The translations under genes and the position numbers were made by a program. The notes below the pieces were generated by a model. The model did not search any database. It saw nothing but the letters and a program-made list of their open reading frames with translations, and was not told where the DNA came from. From IMG/VR virus record IMGVR_UViG_3300033145_000551, positions 1 to 34,282 of that record: a stretch of DNA of 34,282 bases; one strand, 5' to 3'. Source of the stretch: a virus. Within the stretch, counting starts at the first letter, position 1, and the number at the start of each line of letters is the position of its first letter. Shown one piece after another: positions 324 through 34,282 of this stretch.

Positions 324-741
324 ATTTCATATTAAAGTCATGGCTAGCATATACGTTTGGAGTACCACGGTAAATGGCAAGCCCATTACCACATGTGGTT
401 TTTTAGAAGATGAGAATCATAACCTAACACTGCCGGCATGGACGCTGTCACACGAGCAACATGCGGCTCATATAGCTATCAAATTGTTTCGTAAATATAT
501 AGCCGTAGACCCACGAACACTAGACATTGTTCCCTATGGGTTTTTCGACCCCATCAGACCGCCACTGGATGAGCAAGAAATGCTCCGGCGCACCATTCAT
601 GTGTGTTACAAAACGCAAATTCACCCTGGCACTCCCGTCCATCCCACATTAAGGTTTATGACACATGAAGAACTCGAAATCGCTCGAAGAAGAATTGCAA
701 GAGGTCATTACGAAGCATACCGAGCAGGCGTCAGCGGCTAA
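316..741 (+). CDS. Nudix-like protein lacking the catalytic glutamates
   Basis: 141 residues, starting at an ATG that overlaps the previous gene by 8 bases. The layout is that of a small Nudix domain: a first strand, then LPAW (about residues 39-42) where hydrolases have LPGG, then an Ala-rich helix, then strands with a D-P pair and a late T-H-E-E helix. The usual GX5EX7REUXEEXGU box is not present: the helix reads IKLFRKY where R-E-x-x-E-E would be expected. If the fold call is right, the protein is probably not a metal-dependent pyrophosphohydrolase and may bind a nucleotide or act structurally. The 3' end overlaps the next frame by 77 bases. The fold assignment is tentative. Confidence 0.5.
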   Translation: MDKFHIKVMASIYVWSTTVNGKPITTCGFLEDENHNLTLPAWTLSHEQHAAHIAIKLFRKYIAVDPRTLDIVPYGFFDPIRPPLDEQEMLRRTIHVCYKTQIHPGTPVHPTLRFMTHEELEIARRRIARGHYEAYRAGVSG

Positions 742-1072
742 AGAAGATGATGCCATACAAAACTATCCATTTCAGGTGATATTTGCTGCTGATGCCAAAG
801 ACAACGTCAAAGTAACAGTACGCTGGCCACAAGATGCTGTACCGTTTCAAACCGTACGTACTATTGCAACTATGCTACATCATATCTCGGCGGGTCATTG
901 GAAACCCCCCATGATTGAATCCGTGAAAAAATACGGAACGGACGCACAACAAATAGATGTGTCTATGGAAATCTTACGAGAATGGGGCCAGGCACGCCAG
1001 GCTATTTTGTCAGAAGCAACTTGTGTCGTTCCCCGAAGTGTTTTTAGACCGCAACCACCCCCACAAGGATAA
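665..1072 (+). CDS. Hypothetical protein
   Basis: 135 residues, ending 4 bases before the ThyX start. The ATG at 665 lies 77 bases inside the preceding gene. The first 30 residues are charged (Lys/Glu rich) and probably helical. The middle (NYPFQVIFAADA, then VTVRWPQDAV) looks like beta strands. The C-terminus is Pro-rich (RPQPPPQG). No family recognised. The non-overlapping part fills an otherwise empty gap and reads like protein, so the gene is likely real. A later start, for example a TTG near 692, cannot be excluded. Confidence 0.6.
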   Translation: MKNSKSLEEELQEVITKHTEQASAAKEDDAIQNYPFQVIFAADAKDNVKVTVRWPQDAVPFQTVRTIATMLHHISAGHWKPPMIESVKKYGTDAQQIDVSMEILREWGQARQAILSEATCVVPRSVFRPQPPPQG

Positions 1073-1076
1073 GTAA

Positions 1077-2006
1077 ATGACACACATAAATACCCTAACA
1101 GAAAAATACTTTCCAGTTTTAGACCATGGGTTTTGTGCAGTGGTAGATAGTATGGGTAATGACCACGCCATTGCTCGCGCGGCACGATGTAGCTATGGCG
1201 TGGGTACCAAAACAGTATCAGATGACCGTGGACTAATACGCACATTGATACGTGATATGCACACGTCGCCCCTAGAAATGTGTGAGTTGGTCATCCATGT
1301 TGGATTACCTATTTTTGTTGCTCGACAATGGGTACGACATCGCACGGCGTCACTTAACGAATATAGTGGTCGCTACAGTGTTATGCCTATGATATTCTAC
1401 TCACCAGAACGCGACCGTCTTAAAACACAGAGTCAAACAAATAAGCAAGGAAGCACTGATGATTTGATTAGTGAGGATGCACATGCGAGAATGTTAGACA
1501 ACCAACACGATGCACGAACAGCTATAAAAACCTTGTATGCTAACAACATAGAATCCGACCTGGCGCGAGAATTGGCCCGCATAGACCTCCCTCTCAGTAC
1601 CTACACCTATTGGTATTGGAAGATAGACCTAAAAAATCTACTGCACTTCTTGAAACTTCGCCTGGATATCCATGCACAGTGGGAAATACGACAATATGCC
1701 AAGGTCATAGCTGGCATAGTTAAAGAATGGCTACCACTAACCTGGGAAGCGTTCTCCGACTATGTGCTTAATGGAGTACATTTCAGTAGACAAGAACAGG
1801 CTCTCTTGCTTAAACTCATTGACGGTGAGTCCAATATCAACTATGGTGCCAGTGACAATGGTATGACCCGACGTGAAACCAGAAGTTTTCTAACCAAGTT
1901 GCAATTTATGGATGGTCAAGTTACCGATGACATAGCGCTGGACTTGGAATCAGCTAAAACGCCTGAGTATTATGAAAAAATGATTCAACAAAACGGTGTC
2001 ATATGA
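1077..2006 (+). CDS. thyX: FAD-dependent thymidylate synthase ThyX
   Basis: ThyX makes dTMP from dUMP with methylenetetrahydrofolate, FAD and NADPH. The protein has 309 residues, somewhat longer than many bacterial ThyX. The signature RHRxxSxNExSxRY is present at residues 87-100 (R87-H88-R89, S92, S97, R99), the dUMP/FAD-binding ThyX motif. A conserved R-Q-W precedes it at 83-85, and DLPLSTYTYWYWKIDLKNLLHFL-like C-terminal helices are also typical. The C-terminal 60 residues beyond the core are not recognised. The start follows the previous stop by 4 bases. Together with dCMP deaminase, class II RNR and dNMP kinase it forms a dTTP supply route. Confidence 0.97.
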   Translation: MTHINTLTEKYFPVLDHGFCAVVDSMGNDHAIARAARCSYGVGTKTVSDDRGLIRTLIRDMHTSPLEMCELVIHVGLPIFVARQWVRHRTASLNEYSGRYSVMPMIFYSPERDRLKTQSQTNKQGSTDDLISEDAHARMLDNQHDARTAIKTLYANNIESDLARELARIDLPLSTYTYWYWKIDLKNLLHFLKLRLDIHAQWEIRQYAKVIAGIVKEWLPLTWEAFSDYVLNGVHFSRQEQALLLKLIDGESNINYGASDNGMTRRETRSFLTKLQFMDGQVTDDIALDLESAKTPEYYEKMIQQNGVI

Positions 2007-2626
2007 AAAAGAAAATAGTGTGGGAAAAATGGAAAGACCCATTGTTATCCAACTATGATGAAACCGAATGGCCGGGTTATGATTTGGATGAAAATGACGA
2101 TAAGATTCCTCTTCATACTGCCGAACGCCAGCCCGTTATACACACGCCGTTTGGTATGGTCAGTGTTGTTGGTGATGCCATGGCCTTCAACGCTTTTGAT
2201 TTTTGGATTATGCATACCAATTTCAACCTAACGGAAGGGATTGCTAATGCCATTGAACAAACCAACGGTGTAGAAACCATGGAGATTTGTACACGATATC
2301 GTGCCCGTATTGGCTTCCCACGCTCTGGCTTATTTCAACCACGTGATGTAATGCACGCTATTGAACAAGCCATCTATGATATGGACCATGAAATTCAAAA
2401 TCAATTGTTTGTAGGTTTAGAAACACAGGTGGTCCACCGCGCCATGGCAACTCGGGATAAGGTTGAAAAGAAATTTGAATACTGGGCTATGTGGATAGTA
2501 CCCAATGGCAACATCGAGGTGTTAGGAACCGATACGATGGATGAACAATATCGGCAGAAATTCAACACATTAAAGCAAGCACATGTATCAGTGGGTGGTC
2601 GTTTTCTCACATCAGAAAGTGAATAG
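2003..2626 (+). CDS. Hypothetical phage protein
   Basis: 207 residues, joined to thyX by an ATGA overlap, so probably translated from the same message. The N-terminal 40 residues are acidic and Trp-containing. From about residue 44 the sequence becomes more ordered: HTPFGMV, then FWIMHTNF, then TRYRARIGFPRSGLF, then a helix rich in acidic residues. The ordered middle looks like a compact alpha/beta domain. I do not recognise a named family or catalytic motif. Its place beside thyX and a ClpP-like protease gives no clear functional hint. Confidence 0.75.
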   Translation: MKKKIVWEKWKDPLLSNYDETEWPGYDLDENDDKIPLHTAERQPVIHTPFGMVSVVGDAMAFNAFDFWIMHTNFNLTEGIANAIEQTNGVETMEICTRYRARIGFPRSGLFQPRDVMHAIEQAIYDMDHEIQNQLFVGLETQVVHRAMATRDKVEKKFEYWAMWIVPNGNIEVLGTDTMDEQYRQKFNTLKQAHVSVGGRFLTSESE

Positions 2627-2632
2627 CACAAT

Positions 2633-3328
2633 ATGTCTAATCCTAAACGACGCAATATATCACAACGTAGTGAGATGATTTATGATGCACATCACTTTGG
2701 GATTATCATTGATACCCGAGAGCTTTTCATTGCCCCCAATCTCGAACAATCTGTTGATGAGGCCATGATTGACCATGTAGTGTGTAATCAATTCATACGT
2801 AATCTACAAATACTCAACAGCATGAGTAACGATACCATTCTAATTCACATGGCTACTTGTGGAGGCGATTGGAGTTATGGTATCGCTATTTATGATATGA
2901 TTAAAGCCAGTTGTGATGATGAAGACTCATCGAATATAGTGGTACTTTCACATGCCCATGCGCGTAGTATGTCTTCGATAATTCCACAAGCCGCCACGTG
3001 GCGTGTGTTGATGCCATGTATAGATTATCTTGTTCATTATGGTTATTATGCTGATTCGGGTAACTATACTAATGTCATGGCCAATGCCGATTGGTACAAA
3101 AAATCCAATGACTTAATGATGAATATGTACTTAGAACGTATTCGGGAAGGTCAGTTTTTCAAGCGAGAGGGCTGGGATGATAAACAAATTCTCACATGGC
3201 TTCGGACCACCATTGACAAGCGTCAGGAATTTTACATGACAGCACGAGATGCTGTAGACAAAGGGTTTGCAGACGCCGTGTTGGGTGATGAGGGGTTTGA
3301 AACCATTGCCAAGTTGAGAGATGAGTAG
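2633..3328 (+). CDS. ClpP-like serine protease
   Basis: 231 residues of the ClpP/crotonase fold. Motifs appear in ClpP order: TCGGDWSYGIAIYDMI (residues 75-90, like the NSPGG...AIYD motif), then ARSMSS with the likely nucleophile S112, then DYLVHYG with H135. The C-terminal stretch KRQEFYMTARDAVDKGFADAV matches the region of the third triad residue. By eye E199 aligns with the usual Asp. ClpP-like proteases in phages are often head-maturation proteases. Here the gene sits among metabolic genes, so a regulatory or host-directed role is also possible. The next gene begins immediately after the TAG. Confidence 0.8.
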   Translation: MSNPKRRNISQRSEMIYDAHHFGIIIDTRELFIAPNLEQSVDEAMIDHVVCNQFIRNLQILNSMSNDTILIHMATCGGDWSYGIAIYDMIKASCDDEDSSNIVVLSHAHARSMSSIIPQAATWRVLMPCIDYLVHYGYYADSGNYTNVMANADWYKKSNDLMMNMYLERIREGQFFKREGWDDKQILTWLRTTIDKRQEFYMTARDAVDKGFADAVLGDEGFETIAKLRDE

Positions 3329-4180
3329 ATGTCATACCTACTGTGCCGACCCAACAATGGTATTAACGACATGTTCAATCAAATTGAACTTTGTTGGCGA
3401 TATGCACAGGCATTTGACCGTACCCTCATTCTTGATACCAATCATAAGACCCCGTCATGTTTCTTTAGGTGTGACTTTGATATATTTTTTCAACGTAAAA
3501 ACCCACAAGATGATGTGGTGCTATGGTGTTCTCCAAATCTATGGCGAGAATTAGAACAGTTAAAAACACATAGTTTTGCACAAGGAAAGCTTCACAGCTA
3601 TTTTCTCCACCGGGATTGTCAGCATAGGTTTAACATGGACAAGAAACACGACCTACCACTTTTAATACATCATGTGGGGTGGGGGGGCATTTTGGGTGCC
3701 TATGGTATGAATCGTGTGGTCTTTACCAACCACATATCTCAAGCAATTAAACGTCGTTTACAACATTTACCATCACGGTATCATGCTATACACATACGAC
3801 ATACGGATATGCGTACAAAATATAAGCTCTTTTGCGAACAACTTAAACCCGAATTAGATGGTCAAAACTTACTTGTGTGCTCCGATAATTTTAGTTGTCT
3901 ACAATATGCACGACAGTTATTCAAAAACACACAGATATTTACAGTGTCTTCCATACCTGACCTAAATGGACATGGACTACACGGACCCCAAAATGCACAA
4001 AGTAAACTACACAGTAACCTGGACGCATTTACTGATTTAATGGCCCTATCCGGTGCTGTTAATTTATACTATCCACCCAAGGAAAAGACACATGGAAAAT
4101 ATCGACATTCGGGCTTTGCTATGCTAGCCAAGGCATTGCAACAATCGCCATCTATAAGAAATGAGCTTCTCCACCAATGA
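3329..4180 (+). CDS. Fucosyltransferase-fold (GT-B) glycosyltransferase
   Basis: 283 residues. The motif order matches the alpha-1,2/1,6-fucosyltransferase and protein O-fucosyltransferase superfamily. An N-terminal N-N-G-I-N-D-M and a YA-AF-R-x-L-I-L-D strand suggest the acceptor domain. HIRHTDMR (about residues 155-162) matches the H-x-R-R/H-x-D nucleotide-sugar motif. LLVCSDNFSCLQYA matches the second motif. DAFTDLMALSGAVNLYYPP with a later HSGFAMLAKAL matches the third. The donor cannot be told from sequence. It could decorate a phage or host surface glycan or protein. It starts directly after the protease stop and overlaps the sigma factor gene by four bases. Confidence 0.7.
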   Translation: MSYLLCRPNNGINDMFNQIELCWRYAQAFDRTLILDTNHKTPSCFFRCDFDIFFQRKNPQDDVVLWCSPNLWRELEQLKTHSFAQGKLHSYFLHRDCQHRFNMDKKHDLPLLIHHVGWGGILGAYGMNRVVFTNHISQAIKRRLQHLPSRYHAIHIRHTDMRTKYKLFCEQLKPELDGQNLLVCSDNFSCLQYARQLFKNTQIFTVSSIPDLNGHGLHGPQNAQSKLHSNLDAFTDLMALSGAVNLYYPPKEKTHGKYRHSGFAMLAKALQQSPSIRNELLHQ

Positions 4181-4662
4181 GTAAAACACAAATTACCAAT
4201 ACAGAATTCAATCTAGCCCGTGTTAAGTATTTACCTATGATTACCAAACTGGTGGTGCAATATGCCAGTACATTAACCCCAGACATATTAGCCGCCGCAG
4301 GAGACATGGCACTGTGGCGTTGTCTACAATCTTACGACCCATCCTTTGGGCAAAAAGTGTCCTCTTCTTTGTATCGCTTTGTCCATTGGGAATGCTTGCG
4401 AGCTATTAAAGACAATAAATGTAAAAATATCTCTATAAGTAGTGATGTAATTGGTGATGAAGAATTAGTATCTATACGCATGATATTAGACGACTATTTA
4501 TCATTACTGCCTAGAAAAGCAAGACGTATTGTTGAGGCCAGATTCCTAGAAAACCGTACATTAGACGAAATCGCACGTGTTGAGGGATATTCTAAGCAAG
4601 GAATCAAAGATATTGTAGACAGGTCAATTGGCACAATGTCAGAAGCCGCCCAAACCGGTTAG
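4177..4662 (+). CDS. Sigma-70 family RNA polymerase sigma factor, phage type
   Basis: 161 residues, the size of ECF or phage sigma factors. Residues about 15-78 form a region 2-like helical bundle (YLPMITKLVVQYAS, then ALWRCLQSYDPSFGQ, then FVHWECLRAI, the last with region 2.4 character). After a linker, residues about 109-150 form region 4 with a helix-turn-helix (LPRKARRIVEARFLENRTLDEIA, then YSKQGIKDIV). Regions 1.1 and 3 are absent. It probably redirects host RNA polymerase to phage promoters, perhaps late ones. The ATG overlaps the upstream stop (ATGA), and 93 non-coding bases follow. Confidence 0.85.
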   Translation: MSKTQITNTEFNLARVKYLPMITKLVVQYASTLTPDILAAAGDMALWRCLQSYDPSFGQKVSSSLYRFVHWECLRAIKDNKCKNISISSDVIGDEELVSIRMILDDYLSLLPRKARRIVEARFLENRTLDEIARVEGYSKQGIKDIVDRSIGTMSEAAQTG

Positions 4663-4755
4663 ATTTGGTGTATATTGTGGTAGGATTTAGGACTTTTATT
4701 TTTAGGGTACAACAATTGGATATAAACTTGGTCGCCAACTAAAAGGTGATACACA
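4663..4755 (+). promoter_or_regulatory. Intergenic leader, probable promoter region of the 4756-5655 unit
   Basis: 93 AT-rich bases between the sigma factor gene and a gene with a strong ribosome binding site (AAAAGGTGAT, 4741-4750). No clear TTGACA/TATAAT pair is present. The stretch TTTTATTTTTAGGG near 4695-4708 and TATAAAC near 4721 are visible, but no hexamer pair can be defended. The position, just after a sigma gene and at the head of a terminator-closed unit, makes a promoter read by the phage sigma factor plausible. Confidence 0.35.
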
Positions 4756-5310
4756 ATGGCTAATAATAAAGCTGATGGCTCCCTGTGGGACAAGGTAATT
4801 TCCGCCAATGTCGTGCGCGATAATGGTGCAACAGTTCTCATGGGCGGTGCAATTGATTCCAGTGCCACCGTTACAAACGCTCCCGACCTAGCAATTACTG
4901 GTGCTGGTCGCAGGGCTCAACCCAAACCCGTCGAAAGTGCTCAAGTGGGCACAACCAAATCTGTTACAGCAGGTACATTTGCTAAATTGGCTGCTGGTCA
5001 GTATATCGTTAAGGGTGGCAACATCACTACGGTACTAGCTGGCGTTGCATATCGCGGTCTACGCGGTGCAGGTAACCAAAACCAGATTCGTGGTATCCAC
5101 ACCTTGCTGACACGCAAGACGGTTCTTATCGACTCTTGGGATTACGCTACGGGTGCCGCTACATTGAGTGGTAGCAACCCCAGCGATGATGATTTTGACA
5201 TTGATGGCGATTACGCCATTCCCACTCGTGCTCTCCCCGGTAATGTAATTACCTTGCCAACCGGTCGTGAGACTCCAACCACCACAGCCCTACCAGCGAA
5301 GACTGGCTAA
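4756..5310 (+). CDS. Gly/Ala/Thr-rich protein, possible virion or surface protein
   Basis: 184 residues with low charge and a composition rich in Gly, Ala, Thr, Val and Asn. Alternating hydrophobic patterns suggest beta structure (SSATVTNAPDLAITGAG, then TAGTFAKLAAGQYIVKGG). A DDDFDIDGDY patch at about residues 137-146 could bind metal, and the C-terminus is Pro/Thr-rich. No signal peptide or family recognised. The strong ribosome binding site and the intrinsic terminator downstream at 5676 suggest high expression together with the pilin-like gene. Head decoration, tail or external protein are possibilities; none is shown. Confidence 0.75.
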   Translation: MANNKADGSLWDKVISANVVRDNGATVLMGGAIDSSATVTNAPDLAITGAGRRAQPKPVESAQVGTTKSVTAGTFAKLAAGQYIVKGGNITTVLAGVAYRGLRGAGNQNQIRGIHTLLTRKTVLIDSWDYATGAATLSGSNPSDDDFDIDGDYAIPTRALPGNVITLPTGRETPTTTALPAKTG

Positions 5311-5334
5311 TTTTAACACACAAGGAGTCATGTT

Positions 5335-5655
5335 ATGAAAACGTCTTATCAAACCCGAAATGGTGTTTTAACTTTTGAATGGATTTTACTACTGACCTTG
5401 TTAGTCATTGGTATTATTGGTGGAGTTAGTGCAGTTAGAGATGCCATAATTGATGAATTGGGTGACGTATCCAATGCTACAATCTCACTTGACCAAAGCT
5501 ACACTGTTGGAAATCCTTGGGAAGTTACTGTTGCAGATTGTATAGCCGACGGTGCTATAGGTTCACGATTTGTAGACAGCGCAACAATGGGTAGACAACG
5601 GCCTGGAAATAACTCTCCTCCTTCTTCACAAACTATTACAGAATGTGATTGGTAA
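5335..5655 (+). CDS. Type IV pilin-like precursor resembling a planctomycete pilin-like family
   Basis: 106 residues with strong ribosome binding site AAGGAG (5322-5327). After a short basic leader comes G-V-L-T-F-E-W (residues 10-16), matching the prepilin pattern: cleavage after Gly and Glu at mature position 5. A hydrophobic helix of about 18 residues follows, then AVRDAIIDELGDV and LDQSY. From memory this N-terminal block closely resembles pilin-like proteins abundant in Planctomycetes; I could not search. The C-terminal half is polar with two Cys and may form a small head domain. It shares a transcription unit with the preceding gene. A phage-borne pilin could change host pili or surface. 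Horizontal acquisition from the host is likely. Confidence 0.7.
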   Translation: MKTSYQTRNGVLTFEWILLLTLLVIGIIGGVSAVRDAIIDELGDVSNATISLDQSYTVGNPWEVTVADCIADGAIGSRFVDSATMGRQRPGNNSPPSSQTITECDW

Positions 5656-28552: not shown

Positions 28553-29001
28553 ACAGGGACACATTTGAAAAACTAGTCTGGGATGTCGTCAAGGACCAGC
28601 GAAATCAGACCATGGTGGTTGACAATTTCCACGCCTATGGTATAATAAAGAACAGGGTAGACTCCTTTTGGGAGCAGGTGCGCTTACTACAGCCCGATGA
28701 TGACCAACTGATGATATTGGGTGGACTCGTAGCCATTGCAGCTTATGCTCAATTAGCTGCGGAAAACCTGGCATTAGCACCCGAACAATTGGGATATGAC
28801 GACCGACACGAGGCCGCTGAACAGGATGCCATAGAAGCCGGTGGGGTGTTTCACCGATTGATTAGCACTATCAATCAATCAAAACAACCTGTTCGGTCTT
28901 TACAAAAAGGAACTCCAAGGTTTGCTTTTGAATTTAACGCAGACCAATTGTATGCTTGGATAGCTCAGGCACATGATATAAGTCAAGAGGAATTAGCATG
29001 A
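28549..29001 (+). CDS. Conserved helical phage protein
   Basis: 150 residues, ATGA-coupled both up- and downstream. Mostly helical: MNRDTFEKLVWDVVKDQR, then SFWEQVRLL, then MILGGLVAIAAYAQLAAENLAL (hydrophobic but not clearly a membrane segment), then a charged helix and a C-terminal helix. I recognise the overall pattern as a phage protein of unknown function. An internal promoter (28619) lies within it. Confidence 0.68.
   Translation: MNRDTFEKLVWDVVKDQRNQTMVVDNFHAYGIIKNRVDSFWEQVRLLQPDDDQLMILGGLVAIAAYAQLAAENLALAPEQLGYDDRHEAAEQDAIEAGGVFHRLISTINQSKQPVRSLQKGTPRFAFEFNADQLYAWIAQAHDISQEELA
28619..28646 (+). promoter_or_regulatory. Sigma-70-type promoter inside gene 28549-29001
   Basis: TTGACA (28619-28624), 16-base spacer, TATAAT (28641-28646), preceded by TGG (an extended -10). 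The context GGTTGACAATT is shared with 6114 and 16779. It could supply transcripts to the endonuclease and the polymerase gene that follow. Confidence 0.5.
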
Positions 29002-30104
29002 GCGAATATGTAGGAACACTAAGCAAAGAAGGTGGCGTGGACATTAACATGGAGCCATGGAGTCATATCAAGGGCGTTTATGAAATTCGTAATATGGTTA
29101 ATGGTTGGTGTTATGTGGGGGGTTGTAACCGTGCCAGTGGTGGAGTACGGACTAGAATACATGGCCATAGCAGTGGCCTAAATAATACTAACACTCAACA
29201 TGGTAAAGAATTTCTAGCAGACTGGCATCATGGACATAAATTTCAAGTAAGCTTGATGGCAGAGTACAAGATTGGAAGCATCATTCCGCTTACCACACTA
29301 GAAAAAAAACACTTGGATAAGTTGAGGTCAAATGGCATACCAACATACAATGTAAAGCCACCCAACGCAAGAAAAATTAGTTTTACAGATAAGGAAGCGC
29401 CGCAGGTTGAAGCAAAAATTCTATCAAATTGTACTGGTACTGATGACCCCAATAAATGTTGGTTATGGAATGGCAACATCGACAGCCGGGGTTATGGCAA
29501 AATGTGTCGTAAAGGCAAAAATTGTCTGGTACATCGCTTATTATATCAATTGAAACATCCTGATATAGATATCTCTGGATATCATATACGTCATGGAGAT
29601 AATTGTCCGAAACACTGCTGCAATCCAGCACACATGAAGAGGGGCGGTCATCAACAAAATGCCAATGATAGCGCTATAAAATATGAACTTAGGGGTCGTA
29701 CATACACGTGCTATGAGTTGTCGCAACTGGATGAGAGCCACAAAGACGTAACGCCAGAAATGATACGTATGCGTATACAAAACGGATATGATGTTTACCG
29801 TGCCATGACACAGGCTCCCGCTAGCAATGCTGGGAAAGCCCACTTATCACACGAACAGCAAGAACTTATAGTTCAACGACATAAAGACAAATGGACACTT
29901 AAACAAATTGGTACTCAAGTTGGTTGTCATCCGACAACCGTTAGTAGGATTCTACGCAATAGCAATATACATGAGAGCCAGCAAGCCCAAAAAAAACGAG
30001 GAATACAATGGTTACGTGAAAATCCACAAGCTACATATAACGAAACAAGGGAAACATTCGACATAAAGCGTCGCACATATAACAGATGGAAAAAACTCGT
30101 ATGA
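28998..30104 (+). CDS. GIY-YIG + HNH + helix-turn-helix endonuclease
   Basis: 368 residues with two different nuclease domains in one chain. The GIY-YIG domain: G26-V-Y28, then Y39-V-G41, R53 in RTRIHGH, E102 in TLEKK, N118 in TYNVK. The HNH domain: CWLWNG (154-159), GYG, L-V-H179-R, H-I-R-H199-G-D, C-x-N-P-A-H (208-212) and N221, as in His-Me finger HNH_3 enzymes. After it, a YELRGRTYTCYELSQL / TPEMIRMRI helix-turn-helix-like NUMOD segment (229-260) and a resolvase-type HTH (about 296-320). Probably a homing endonuclease; its stop overlaps the dnaE start by ATGA. Confidence 0.88.
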   Translation: MSEYVGTLSKEGGVDINMEPWSHIKGVYEIRNMVNGWCYVGGCNRASGGVRTRIHGHSSGLNNTNTQHGKEFLADWHHGHKFQVSLMAEYKIGSIIPLTTLEKKHLDKLRSNGIPTYNVKPPNARKISFTDKEAPQVEAKILSNCTGTDDPNKCWLWNGNIDSRGYGKMCRKGKNCLVHRLLYQLKHPDIDISGYHIRHGDNCPKHCCNPAHMKRGGHQQNANDSAIKYELRGRTYTCYELSQLDESHKDVTPEMIRMRIQNGYDVYRAMTQAPASNAGKAHLSHEQQELIVQRHKDKWTLKQIGTQVGCHPTTVSRILRNSNIHESQQAQKKRGIQWLRENPQATYNETRETFDIKRRTYNRWKKLV

Positions 30105-32062
30105 ACACATACTTCCCGCTTCATGTTCATTCGCACTACTCTTTATTAGATGGACTTGCCAAGCCCCTACAAATTGCCAATCGGTGTAAAGACCTTGGCC
30201 TAGCCGGGTCTGCTCTAACCGACCATGGCACCGTTGCTGGTGTAATATCATTCATGGATGCAATGAAAAAAAAAGAACTACAAGCCATCATGGGTTGTGA
30301 AATGTACATCGCACCCAGGGATGCTACACTGAGAGATGGAGACCGCACCCTGCATCACCTGGTGGTACTGGCCAAGAACCTAGACGGATGGCATCAACTT
30401 ATTCAAGCTACCAGTGAAGCCAATCGACCTGAACACTTCTACTATAAACCCCGCTTAGACCTGGAGCGTCTCGCGCCATATGCTAATGGTAATCTAATAG
30501 CATTCAGTGGACATCTTGGTTCTCATTTGTCTTCCTGTATTTTTTCTGATACCAACGCCCTACACAACTGTCTCACCGCAGACGAGGCCAAACGATTTAC
30601 ACGCAGCGATTGGGTTAAGCGCACCACCGAGGAGGCAGAGCGTCTTCAAGAGATATTTGGCAAGGGCAACTTCTTCATAGAAATACAACTGATAGATTCT
30701 AAGAACATGCCAGCGATGAACTTACTGGCCACCGGTCTGAGATATGTTTCCAAGCAAACTGGCATTCCCTGCATAGCTACGCCCGACGCACATTACGCAG
30801 AGAGAGCAGATGCTTACGACCAACGTACCCTGCTATGTAACTCACTCAATACCAACTTCAGAGAAATCAATGACAAATTAGTACGTGGAGAAGACATAGG
30901 ACTGGCCACGTTTTTTAAGTCCAACAATTATCACATACCCGCATACGATGAGATGTTAGACAGTGGTAATACTAAAGAAGAACTGGCCAACACACTCCAA
31001 GTGGCATCTATGTGTGAGGAATATAAGCTAACTGGACCACCCATGTTGCCTCAATTTCCATGTCCCGACAATGTGTCATCCAAGGACTATCTGAGACAAC
31101 TAATCGACAAGGGCTGGACCAAACGCTGGCCAAAGATTCAACACATTATTGATACCACACATCATACTGAAGAAGAATATCGCGCACGCTTAGAAACAGA
31201 GTTTGCTACGCTAACCGACATTGGCCTAGCAGATTATTTTCTGATTGTACATGACATCATAGACTGGGCACGCAAACAGGGACAGATTACGGGGGCTGGA
31301 CGTGGGTCTGCCGCAGGTTCTTTAATTCTCTATCTTTTGGAAGCCACTCATGTGGACCCCATTGAATATGACCTGTTGTTTGAAAGGTTTTATAACGCCG
31401 GTCGTAATACCGCCGACCGCATAAGCCTACCAGACGTTGATATGGACTTTGAGATTCAACAACGCGGCAAGGTCATGGAGTATATTCGGGAGCGCTATGG
31501 CATCGACCGCGTAGCTCAGATGCTTACGTTTACACGCTTGCAGGGTCGCGGTGCTTTGAAGGATGTGTTACGTGCTCACGCTGCGTGTTCATACGAAGAA
31601 ATGAACCGTATCACACTACACATTCCTGATGAGGCAGAAATTAGCGACCAGTTGCAGGCTATGAAAGAGCTTGACAAAAAAGCCGGTGGTGATGGAGAAG
31701 CCTCTATTATTATGTGGGCACTAGAACACAACACGGAAGAACTTAAACAGTGGGCCTTCTTAGATGACGACCACAATATCCAAGGTCCACTTTCCAAGAT
31801 GTTTGAACAGGCCATACGCATAGAAGGTACGAAGAAATCCCAGTCTAAACACGCCGCCGGTCTTGTAATTGCACAGGAACCACTGGCTCAAATATGTCCC
31901 ATGATATATGACAAGAGTAGTGGTGAAATGATATGTGGACTGGAAATGAATGACTTGGAAAGTATGGGGCATGTCAAATTTGACATCCTTGGAGTTGCGT
32001 TATTGGACAAGATACATGGTATTCTCAACTTGCTGAAATATGGAGAACTCACGTATGACTGA
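30101..32062 (+). CDS. dnaE: DNA polymerase III alpha subunit, N-terminal part (PHP and palm)
   Basis: 653 residues from the ATG at 30101 (ATGA overlap; an ATG at 30086 adds 5). The PHP domain opens with LHVHSHYSLLDG (H8, H10, H12). The palm has GRGSAAGS (400-407), PDVDMDFE with D445 and D447, and VKFD with D628, matching the E. coli D401/D403/D555 triad, so all catalytic acids are here. The chain ends at K-Y-G-E-L-T-Y-D about 30 residues after the third Asp, before the fingers. The gene at 33956 resumes with the fingers start, so this DnaE is split. A full E. coli alpha is 1160 residues. Likely assembles with the second fragment. Confidence 0.95.
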   Translation: MNTYFPLHVHSHYSLLDGLAKPLQIANRCKDLGLAGSALTDHGTVAGVISFMDAMKKKELQAIMGCEMYIAPRDATLRDGDRTLHHLVVLAKNLDGWHQLIQATSEANRPEHFYYKPRLDLERLAPYANGNLIAFSGHLGSHLSSCIFSDTNALHNCLTADEAKRFTRSDWVKRTTEEAERLQEIFGKGNFFIEIQLIDSKNMPAMNLLATGLRYVSKQTGIPCIATPDAHYAERADAYDQRTLLCNSLNTNFREINDKLVRGEDIGLATFFKSNNYHIPAYDEMLDSGNTKEELANTLQVASMCEEYKLTGPPMLPQFPCPDNVSSKDYLRQLIDKGWTKRWPKIQHIIDTTHHTEEEYRARLETEFATLTDIGLADYFLIVHDIIDWARKQGQITGAGRGSAAGSLILYLLEATHVDPIEYDLLFERFYNAGRNTADRISLPDVDMDFEIQQRGKVMEYIRERYGIDRVAQMLTFTRLQGRGALKDVLRAHAACSYEEMNRITLHIPDEAEISDQLQAMKELDKKAGGDGEASIIMWALEHNTEELKQWAFLDDDHNIQGPLSKMFEQAIRIEGTKKSQSKHAAGLVIAQEPLAQICPMIYDKSSGEMICGLEMNDLESMGHVKFDILGVALLDKIHGILNLLKYGELTYD

Positions 32063-32285
32063 TGAATTTGAAGAATATCGAAAAACTCTAGGTGACAAGG
32101 TAGTAGATACCTTTATTGCTAAGTTTGGTCTCGGACCAGATTTTACACCAATACAAGACTCACATGAATGTCCACAGTGCGGACAAAACAATGCATATTA
32201 CAAGGAGCTTCATGCTGATTGTAATGGTGGCCAAAACACCATTGTGTTGCATTGTCCTGACTGTGGGTGGAGCGAAGATATATAA
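32055..32285 (+). CDS. Small zinc-ribbon protein in the dnaE interval
   Basis: 76 residues from the ATG at 32055, overlapping the dnaE stop by 8 bases; GGAGAAC precedes. ECPQCGQ (about residues 38-44) and HCPDCGWS (about 66-73) form a classical two-pair zinc ribbon. The N-terminal 30 residues are a charged helix. It is the first gene of the interval that separates the two dnaE parts. Function unknown; a polymerase-linked DNA-binding role is conceivable. Confidence 0.72.
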   Translation: MTDEFEEYRKTLGDKVVDTFIAKFGLGPDFTPIQDSHECPQCGQNNAYYKELHADCNGGQNTIVLHCPDCGWSEDI

Positions 32286-32316
32286 CTAACCCAACTTGTT
32301 TTATTAGGACCGACCC

Positions 32317-33000
32317 ATGGACAACAGACATTTTTTATGCTTCGACTTCGAGACAGGCGGCAAATCCACAGAAACCGCAGAAATACTTCAGATTGGTGCC
32401 TGTGTTATTGACCGTAATTCGCTCAAGATAAAAGACAGCTTCACCTCTTTAATGAAGCCCGAAGATTTTGATGCGCTAGAAGAAGAGGCGCTTCAAGTCA
32501 ACGGGCTTACGCGAGAGCAGCTTGCCGAGGCTCCCGAGGCCAGTGTCATGTTCCCCACCTTCGCCGCTTGGATTCAAAAGTTCAACATCAACAAGACCAA
32601 GAATTCGTTTGGCGCACCCATTCCTGTCACCTGGGGTGGTGACCGCTTCGACATCCCCATCCTAGACCGCTATTGCAAGGACTATGGATACTGGGACAAA
32701 AAATGGGGCAACAGCACATTGGTTAATCCCGTGTTCACATTTGATGTGATGAAACACATGTGGTTTTGGACACGTACATTAGCCGACGTAAAGAACGTGA
32801 AACTCGTTACGGTCTTAGAATGGATGGGAGTTTCACCCGATGAAATTGCCGAATGTGCCCATGATGCTATGTGGGATGTGGAGTGGACTGCCAAAATTGC
32901 TATTCGATTATTGAAGACTGGCGTATACTTAACCAGTGTTAACGAAGAGGGTCAACGTCGTTTGAATATGGAAGGATGTTTCACGTCATGCATAAAATAG
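32317..33000 (+). CDS. DnaQ-like DEDDh 3'-5' exonuclease
   Basis: 227 residues. Exo I F-D10-F-E12-T-G-G, Exo II with D near FDIPILDRY (about residues 109-117), and Exo III with H and D in CAHDAMWDVEWTA (about residues 176-188), the DEDDh arrangement. It is the size of a free DnaQ epsilon-like proofreading subunit. Placement between the two parts of dnaE strongly suggests proofreading for the phage polymerase. It lies 31 bases after the preceding stop. The codon usage of the first half is somewhat GC-richer than its neighbours. Confidence 0.9.
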   Translation: MDNRHFLCFDFETGGKSTETAEILQIGACVIDRNSLKIKDSFTSLMKPEDFDALEEEALQVNGLTREQLAEAPEASVMFPTFAAWIQKFNINKTKNSFGAPIPVTWGGDRFDIPILDRYCKDYGYWDKKWGNSTLVNPVFTFDVMKHMWFWTRTLADVKNVKLVTVLEWMGVSPDEIAECAHDAMWDVEWTAKIAIRLLKTGVYLTSVNEEGQRRLNMEGCFTSCIK

Positions 33001-33296
33001 TTGATAAAAACCGACACGACAATGATGCTGTGGGTGGACTATGTTGTCCCCTGTGTGGAATCAAATTGACACTACTGGAACGCACACCACCCCCAGAAAT
33101 TGACTGGGGTAGCGATGATACACAAACCATCAAGCGCCAAGAAACCTGGTGGAAGCACTTTGAAAAGTGCAAGCGTGATGAGTATGCATGTCCTAATGGT
33201 CACTTTGAAAAAGACTTTCCGTTATATCACCATCAGCCGTTCCAGGGCATCGACAGTGCGCCAGGCGATAGTTGGTCTCTAAGTTGGGTGAAATAA
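32988..33296 (+). CDS. Small Cys/His-rich protein
   Basis: 102 residues from the ATG at 32988; an ATG at 32976 adds four but its GGAAGG is too close. LCCPLCG (about residues 18-24) plus a later H-F-E-K-C and ACPNGHF form a plausible zinc site. The rest is charged with several Trp and Pro. Unrecognised. The start lies within the end of the exonuclease gene. Confidence 0.62.
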   Translation: MHKIVDKNRHDNDAVGGLCCPLCGIKLTLLERTPPPEIDWGSDDTQTIKRQETWWKHFEKCKRDEYACPNGHFEKDFPLYHHQPFQGIDSAPGDSWSLSWVK

Positions 33297-33297
33297 A

Positions 33298-33537
33298 ATG
33301 ATAAGTGAACTATTAAGTGCTATCTTACCTACCGTACGTGTATTCCAAATTAAAGACGGCAGGGTTCACCAACGACTCCACACTTTTGTGTGTGTTGCCG
33401 TACCCAGGGTGGGTGAATATATAGCTGTAGAACACGAGTCATGGCCAGTTGTCAAAGTACAATGGGTCATCACAGAACCTAGTGTTCACATGGTTAATGT
33501 GTATGTAATGGAACTGGAACCACAAAATGATGAATAA
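33298..33537 (+). CDS. Small PRVG-motif protein, first of three tandem paralogs
   Basis: 79 residues. Shares with the next two proteins a strand R-V-F-Q, a D-G turn, H-x-R-L, then VAVPRVGEYI (about residues 39-48) and V-x-V-x-W near residue 59, followed by an acidic end. The pattern suggests a small beta-barrel or SH3-like domain. No catalytic residues stand out. Start one base after the upstream stop. Confidence 0.7.
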   Translation: MISELLSAILPTVRVFQIKDGRVHQRLHTFVCVAVPRVGEYIAVEHESWPVVKVQWVITEPSVHMVNVYVMELEPQNDE

Positions 33538-33739
33538 AGAAATACACACACGTGTATTCCAACTGAACGACGGCGGGATTCACAAACGACTCTCGTCATT
33601 CGTATGCACAGCCGTGCCACGTGTAGGTGACCATATCAACTCGCAATATGAATCTTTCTTAGTAAGACAGGTTCGGTGGTGCATAGACGAATCAAACCAC
33701 AAGGTTGAGTATGTGGATGTGTATGTAGAGGAGCCATAA
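33530..33739 (+). CDS. Small PRVG-motif protein, second of three
   Basis: 69 residues from the second of two overlapping ATGs (33527 or 33530), overlapping the upstream stop. T-R-V-F-Q-L-N-D-G, H-K-R-L, then AVPRVGDHI and V-R-W follow the order of its neighbours, so it arose by duplication. It is closest to the first copy. Function unknown. Confidence 0.7.
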   Translation: MNKEIHTRVFQLNDGGIHKRLSSFVCTAVPRVGDHINSQYESFLVRQVRWCIDESNHKVEYVDVYVEEP

Positions 33740-33740
33740 A

Positions 33741-33956
33741 ATGAATAACGAAATACGCATACGCATATACTTAATGTTTAGCAATGGCGACCCAACTCAA
33801 TTCCTTAGAGTCTTTCATGGTTCAGTGGTACCGCGCGTAGGTGAGTATTTTCGCTTACATGGCACGAGCCACCCTATTGTAGATGTAACCTGGGAGATGA
33901 TTGACCACGAACTATGCGCCAATGTTTATGTTGGAGAGACTGAGGAGCCACTATAA
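33741..33956 (+). CDS. Small PRVG-motif protein, third of three
   Basis: 71 residues. R-I-Y replaces R-V-F, then VVPRVGEYF (about residues 31-39), then IVDVTWE, and an acidic end. It is the most diverged of the three. The stop TAA shares its last A with the ATG of the second dnaE part, so the paralogs and the polymerase fragment are coupled. Confidence 0.7.
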   Translation: MNNEIRIRIYLMFSNGDPTQFLRVFHGSVVPRVGEYFRLHGTSHPIVDVTWEMIDHELCANVYVGETEEPL

Positions 33957-34282
33957 TGGGCAAAATAGTTTTCAATTGTGGCTGTGAGTTTCCTATCATC
34001 AATAGTGATGAAGAAATCCATGCCGACCTTTACGACAAACAACTCCCTACGGGGATTGATGTGGATATATACAACATTCCACATGATTGCCCTCGTACGT
34101 GGGCGTTGCTTGCCGAAGGCCGGACCAAGGGCGTCTTCCAACTCGAAGGACACCTAGGTAAAACATGGGCTCACAAAGTTGAACCAGAAAACATAGAAGA
34201 GTTGGCTGCATTAGTAGCATTGATAAGACCAGGATGTATTCGGGCTGTGTCTAAACCTGCTGTACGTTTCTTATATGACATG
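33956..34282 (+). CDS. dnaE: DNA polymerase III alpha, second part (fingers), truncated by window end
   Basis: 109 codons open to the window end. Residues about 39-57 (IDVDIYNIPHDCPRTWALL) and about 58-70 (AEGRTKGVFQLEG) then WAHKVEPENIEELAALVALIRPG match the start of the DnaE fingers, where the family reads G-D-T-x-G-V-F-Q-L-E-S and then R-P-G. The N-terminal 25 residues (FNCGCEFPII) contain two Cys and are not part of standard DnaE. It starts on its own ATG, so it is a separate polypeptide. It continues where the 30101 protein stops. Confidence 0.92.
   Translation, partial: MGKIVFNCGCEFPIINSDEEIHADLYDKQLPTGIDVDIYNIPHDCPRTWALLAEGRTKGVFQLEGHLGKTWAHKVEPENIEELAALVALIRPGCIRAVSKPAVRFLYDM

Follow-up and report, generated by a model that had tools for sequence, protein, structure and literature searches.

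The split dnaE locus

The window examined here, 34,282 bases long, is a viral contig (IMG/VR record IMGVR_UViG_3300033145_000551, taken at its full length) in which the DNA polymerase DnaE is encoded by two genes placed on either side of a gene for a DnaQ-like exonuclease. The first, at positions 30101–32062 of the plus strand, encodes an N chain of 653 amino acids containing the PHP and palm domains (PF02811 and PF07733). Its open reading frame (ORF) is open from 30086, where an ATG is also present, and the methionine at 30101 is the start kept in 16 of 16 aligned relatives. All three catalytic aspartates are located on this chain, and the protein stops 25 residues past the third (D628, counted from 30101), close to the roughly 30 residues given in an earlier sequence-only reading of the window. 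The second gene (33956–34282, plus strand) carries GAGGAG shortly 5′ of its ATG and encodes a C chain that starts at the fingers, matched by PF17657, with a lineage-specific CxC...C leader ahead; the window ends within this gene. Both the beginning of the second gene at the fingers and the separate starts of the two halves, as proposed in that reading, are thereby borne out. The exonuclease gene (32317–33000, plus strand) encodes a DEDDh 3′–5′ exonuclease of 227 amino acids (PF00929).

When compared with the full-length DnaE profile TIGR00594, the N chain covers positions 2–572 and the C chain begins at 576, so that the split falls at the palm–fingers linker and costs hardly any profile positions, in agreement with the domain-boundary break that had been anticipated. 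PHP, palm and fingers occur in DnaE order with no internal exonuclease domain, as is characteristic of the DnaE type, whereas the usual single polypeptide of DnaE-type family C enzymes is replaced by two ORFs in 75 of 75 complete representatives. The AlphaFold model of the N chain (predicted local distance difference test, pLDDT, 89.7) matches residues 1–577 of Escherichia coli alpha (2hnh; Z 37.0, root-mean-square deviation (rmsd) 3.6, 574 residues), and its best structural match is 5lew (Z 41.8). The C-chain model of a relative, locus L030 (pLDDT 82.5), matches residues 571–1073 of E. coli alpha (5fku_A; Z 19.2, rmsd 8.6, 462 residues) and residues 572–911 of 4jom (Z 19.4, rmsd 4.0, 324 residues). 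In these predicted structures, the N and C halves jointly cover one polymerase as far as the tau-binding part. The C chain comprises fingers, helix-hairpin-helix and OB parts; judged from the profile alone, that of L030 is aligned only up to position 1061 of 1146, and the C-terminal tau-binding part, as in E. coli alpha, appears to be missing.

Distribution and conservation of the arrangement

Searches with single proteins matched 28 viral loci by the N chain and four by the C fragment, and the same split was present at every such locus with enough sequence. From an alignment-based search, the best 80 of at least 574 confirmed matches were kept, and the loci were then screened with profiles made from the three proteins; the N chains are less than 90% identical, with pairwise identities down to 33%. 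Each of the 75 dereplicated complete loci shows the order PHP–palm gene, DEDDh exonuclease gene, fingers gene, and a full-length dnaE occurs in none of them, although the kept loci are top matches to split members and more distant exceptions could escape. The suspicion that other phages might carry a similar split is thus confirmed. Nor was a full-length dnaE, which the sequence-only reading had named as contrary evidence, found elsewhere in this record or in same-split contigs of up to 244 kb. A search started from the deep L031 branch agrees, returning the same arrangement. Across the 75 loci, the interval between the N and C genes measures 611–5609 nucleotides (median 872); that of L002 and of L031 contains no gene other than the exonuclease.

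Phylogenetic analysis of 69 N regions groups the 25 split members included into a single clade (support 100/100) whose stem is long. Their nearest relatives in cellular genomes (at most 36% identity) are full-length DnaE proteins, bar one that is split between PHP and palm. Identity to the N chain did not go beyond about 33% for any record of the annotated phage collection, so the clade apparently lacks a cultured member in that collection; gut phage records were the top matches there, and the four examined carry a full-length DnaE grouping with bacterial DnaE. A complete N–exonuclease–C locus (L129:926–5325) was also observed on a contig assigned to a Candidatus Lokiarchaeota bin, probably a phage contig within that bin. 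Two records each contain two differing split-dnaE loci about 146 kb apart (L007 and L013 on one 221-kb contig, L008 and L012 on one 206-kb contig), reflecting either chimeric assembly or two polymerases.

The palm catalytic aspartates are 100% conserved among 83 representatives, and the PHP metal-site residues 87–98% conserved. Comparison of the window, L024 and L030 yielded a nonsynonymous divergence (pN) of 0.16–0.26 for the N, exonuclease and C genes, with synonymous sites saturated, and a ratio of nonsynonymous to synonymous divergence (pN/pS) of about 0.2–0.3; each of the three is under purifying selection. One PF07733 palm domain per contig was found in 20 clade contigs of 84–244 kb, and neither family A (PF00476) nor family B (PF00136) polymerases, nor a DnaN clamp, were detected in these 20. 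Genes for a DnaB-like helicase, a primase and a UvsX-like recombinase are also present in the window, and together with the single polymerase per contig they point to the split enzyme as the replicase.

The seam and the interval genes

The DEDDh exonuclease lies inside the gap in all 75 loci. The last three of its DEDDh residues are present in 75/75 and the first two in 73/75, the two others being ORF calls without that part. Its stop codon overlaps the C-chain start or lies no more than 30 nucleotides from it at 66 of the 75 loci, a spacing consistent with coupled translation. A conserved C-terminal tail, recognised by a loose pattern in 61 of the 75, represents a candidate polymerase contact.

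Pfam gave no intein match for the two chains of the window or for the opening stretch of the L030 C chain. Nor did an intron search at the seam yield a hit passing the gathering threshold; relaxed to E values of up to 5, its only yield was an irrelevant match to a snoRNA family. The boundaries are thus free of the intein or intron signatures that the sequence-only reading had said would contradict it. Its statement that no intein is present holds for the seam and the window chains but not for relatives, in which inteins occupy three different sites within the fingers (L004:13522–15693, L021:14176–16866 and L024:14537–16642). At L013:12807–15802 a split intein between FNK and SHS introduces a further break into the fingers chain, so that DnaE is there encoded in three genes; a DUF559-type endonuclease-like gene lies between the intein halves, and near-copies are found at L011, L012, L026 and L082. 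Within the lineage, intein-associated breaks are sporadic, and one constant break is without an intein. The fingers chain itself is in two ORFs in L122, L227 and L231; in L231 it is split near the middle into two overlapping ORFs.

A CxC motif opens the C chain in 62 of the 75 loci, and a further cysteine usually stands between it and the fingers. This CxC...C leader has no counterpart in full-length DnaE, in the cultured phage phiT1 considered below or in the deep L031 branch. It may bind metal; the stretch is poorly predicted in the L030 C model.

Six same-strand ORFs, the exonuclease included, separate the halves in the window (32040–33956), as originally described. The other five, taken from the ORF list and all on the plus strand, are a cysteine-rich ORF of 81 amino acids that overlaps the N-gene end (32040–32285; a weak, sub-cut-off PF25208 match), a cysteine-rich ORF of 106 amino acids with a homologue in the L030 interval (32976–33296), and three ORFs, similar as judged by eye, of 79 (33298–33537), 70 (33527–33739) and 71 amino acids (33741–33956). 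An ORF resembling these tandem three (33298–33956) is found in the L030 interval. That interval also contains, right after the N chain, an ORF (L030:7353–8000) that is HNH-type endonuclease-like by eye, with no Pfam match. Directly upstream of the window N chain, the ORF at 28998–30104 combines a GIY-YIG-like N-terminus, recognised by eye, with a C-terminal helix-turn-helix (Pfam), making it a possible homing endonuclease.

Interpretation and comparison with known split polymerases

In our interpretation, the locus belongs to an uncultured tailed-phage lineage and encodes a replicative DnaE whose two chains assemble non-covalently, accompanied by a separate exonuclease; we assign this reading a probability of about 0.85. 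Both chains would be produced from one operon and would associate non-covalently into a working family C polymerase, with the intervening DEDDh exonuclease acting as a detached epsilon-like proofreading subunit. Gene order and the conserved C-terminal tail make the exonuclease a candidate epsilon-type partner that may contact the polymerase. Several points count against this interpretation. We infer the association of the chains and their activity from sequence, and the contig holds just the first 109 amino acids of the window C chain, so its completeness is taken from relatives, in which complete C chains measure about 510–570 amino acids, inserts excluded. The congruence of the N, exonuclease and C gene trees (distance r 0.84–0.92) speaks in favour of this reading but is expected of linked genes anyway, and metagenomic contigs may be fragments in which a second polymerase of a given phage could go unseen. 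A more far-reaching version, in which the three proteins form an obligate replicase whose seam the exonuclease and cysteine leader help to hold, a clamp-independent family C type unseen in cells, is tentative and somewhat unlikely.

The polymerase might be two-chain while the exonuclease is not its proofreader, the gene order having been frozen from an ancestral insertion and proofreading being carried out by the PHP domain. The mostly intact PHP metal site is compatible with this, and a shared operon position is no proof of contact; however, the exonuclease occupies every gap with its active site intact and mostly retains its tail, and we regard this alternative as unlikely. A post-expression covalent linkage of the chains, whether through trans-splicing of the proteins or of RNAs across the interval, draws on the inteins of the lineage and on the second fingers break of L013 and its near-copies, which is flanked by intein halves. 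Yet neither the N-chain end nor the C-chain start (window and L030) shows an intein match, the seam shows no intron match, and the C chain possesses its own start, with GAGGAG upstream in the window, and in most relatives a leader foreign to full-length DnaE, making such joining highly improbable. That the split gene is decaying or mis-assembled and a different enzyme copies the phage genome is the least probable explanation: the records are indeed metagenomic contigs, possibly incomplete, but the arrangement is repeated throughout the dereplicated set, purifying selection acts on all three genes, the catalytic residues are invariant, and the 20 long contigs revealed no family A or B polymerase. 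A single-contig artefact or assembly error was also considered and is ruled out, since 75 dereplicated loci are alike.

Division of a DnaE between two genes is familiar from cyanobacteria, in which a split trans-splicing intein seals a break located within the fingers; the present locus shares the two-gene organisation but is broken at the palm–fingers linker and has no intein halves. Split family B polymerases, such as Methanothermobacter PolB and those of some T4-like phages, are likewise two-gene replicative polymerases but belong to an unrelated polymerase family. The PolB of phage MIJ3 is intein-split (PMC6892783).

Closer parallels are found among phage family C enzymes. In group 2.2 jumbo phages, two widely separated genes encode the parts of a minimal Pol III alpha core that lacks the other Pol III domains, PHP included, and the main replicase of these phages is a family B polymerase (Iyer et al. 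2021, PMC7824862). As in the present case, the catalytic module is divided between two stand-alone proteins, which are proposed to rebuild a single enzyme. In contrast to that minimal core, the locus described here encodes PHP, palm, fingers, helix-hairpin-helix and OB parts, the genes form one cluster flanking an exonuclease, and the 20 contigs lack a detected PF00136 polymerase. In the cultured Rossellomorea phage phiT1 (PV767480), gp20 and gp18 cover TIGR00594 positions 1–573 and 580–1022, placing the break at the same palm–fingers linker. Unlike the loci described here, the phiT1 gap contains only a 49-amino-acid ORF and no exonuclease; because phiT1 falls outside the split clade in the tree, its break looks independent, and a search of viral contigs for phiT1-like splits found no relative. 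Further isolated phages with a dnaE annotated as two genes are Microbacterium EF phages (OverHedge; Annapurna, PMC13080520), Rhodococcus phage ChewyVIII and Alicyclobacillus phage MMB025, in which the break falls between PHP and palm, or later in the gene beside an endonuclease, and not around an exonuclease. Two-gene phage DnaE is therefore already known, whereas the exonuclease-flanking split clade is apparently undescribed in the open-access literature, where we found no account of it or of an exonuclease conserved between DnaE halves (subscription journals being mostly outside this search).

The palm and fingers of a family C polymerase normally act as a unit within one long chain. A clade that has kept the two apart over deep divergence provides a natural test of their cooperation, and the separate halves are individually expressible for biochemistry. 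Furthermore, in a replicase without a detected DnaN-type clamp gene, the organisation of proofreading and processivity becomes a question of interest.
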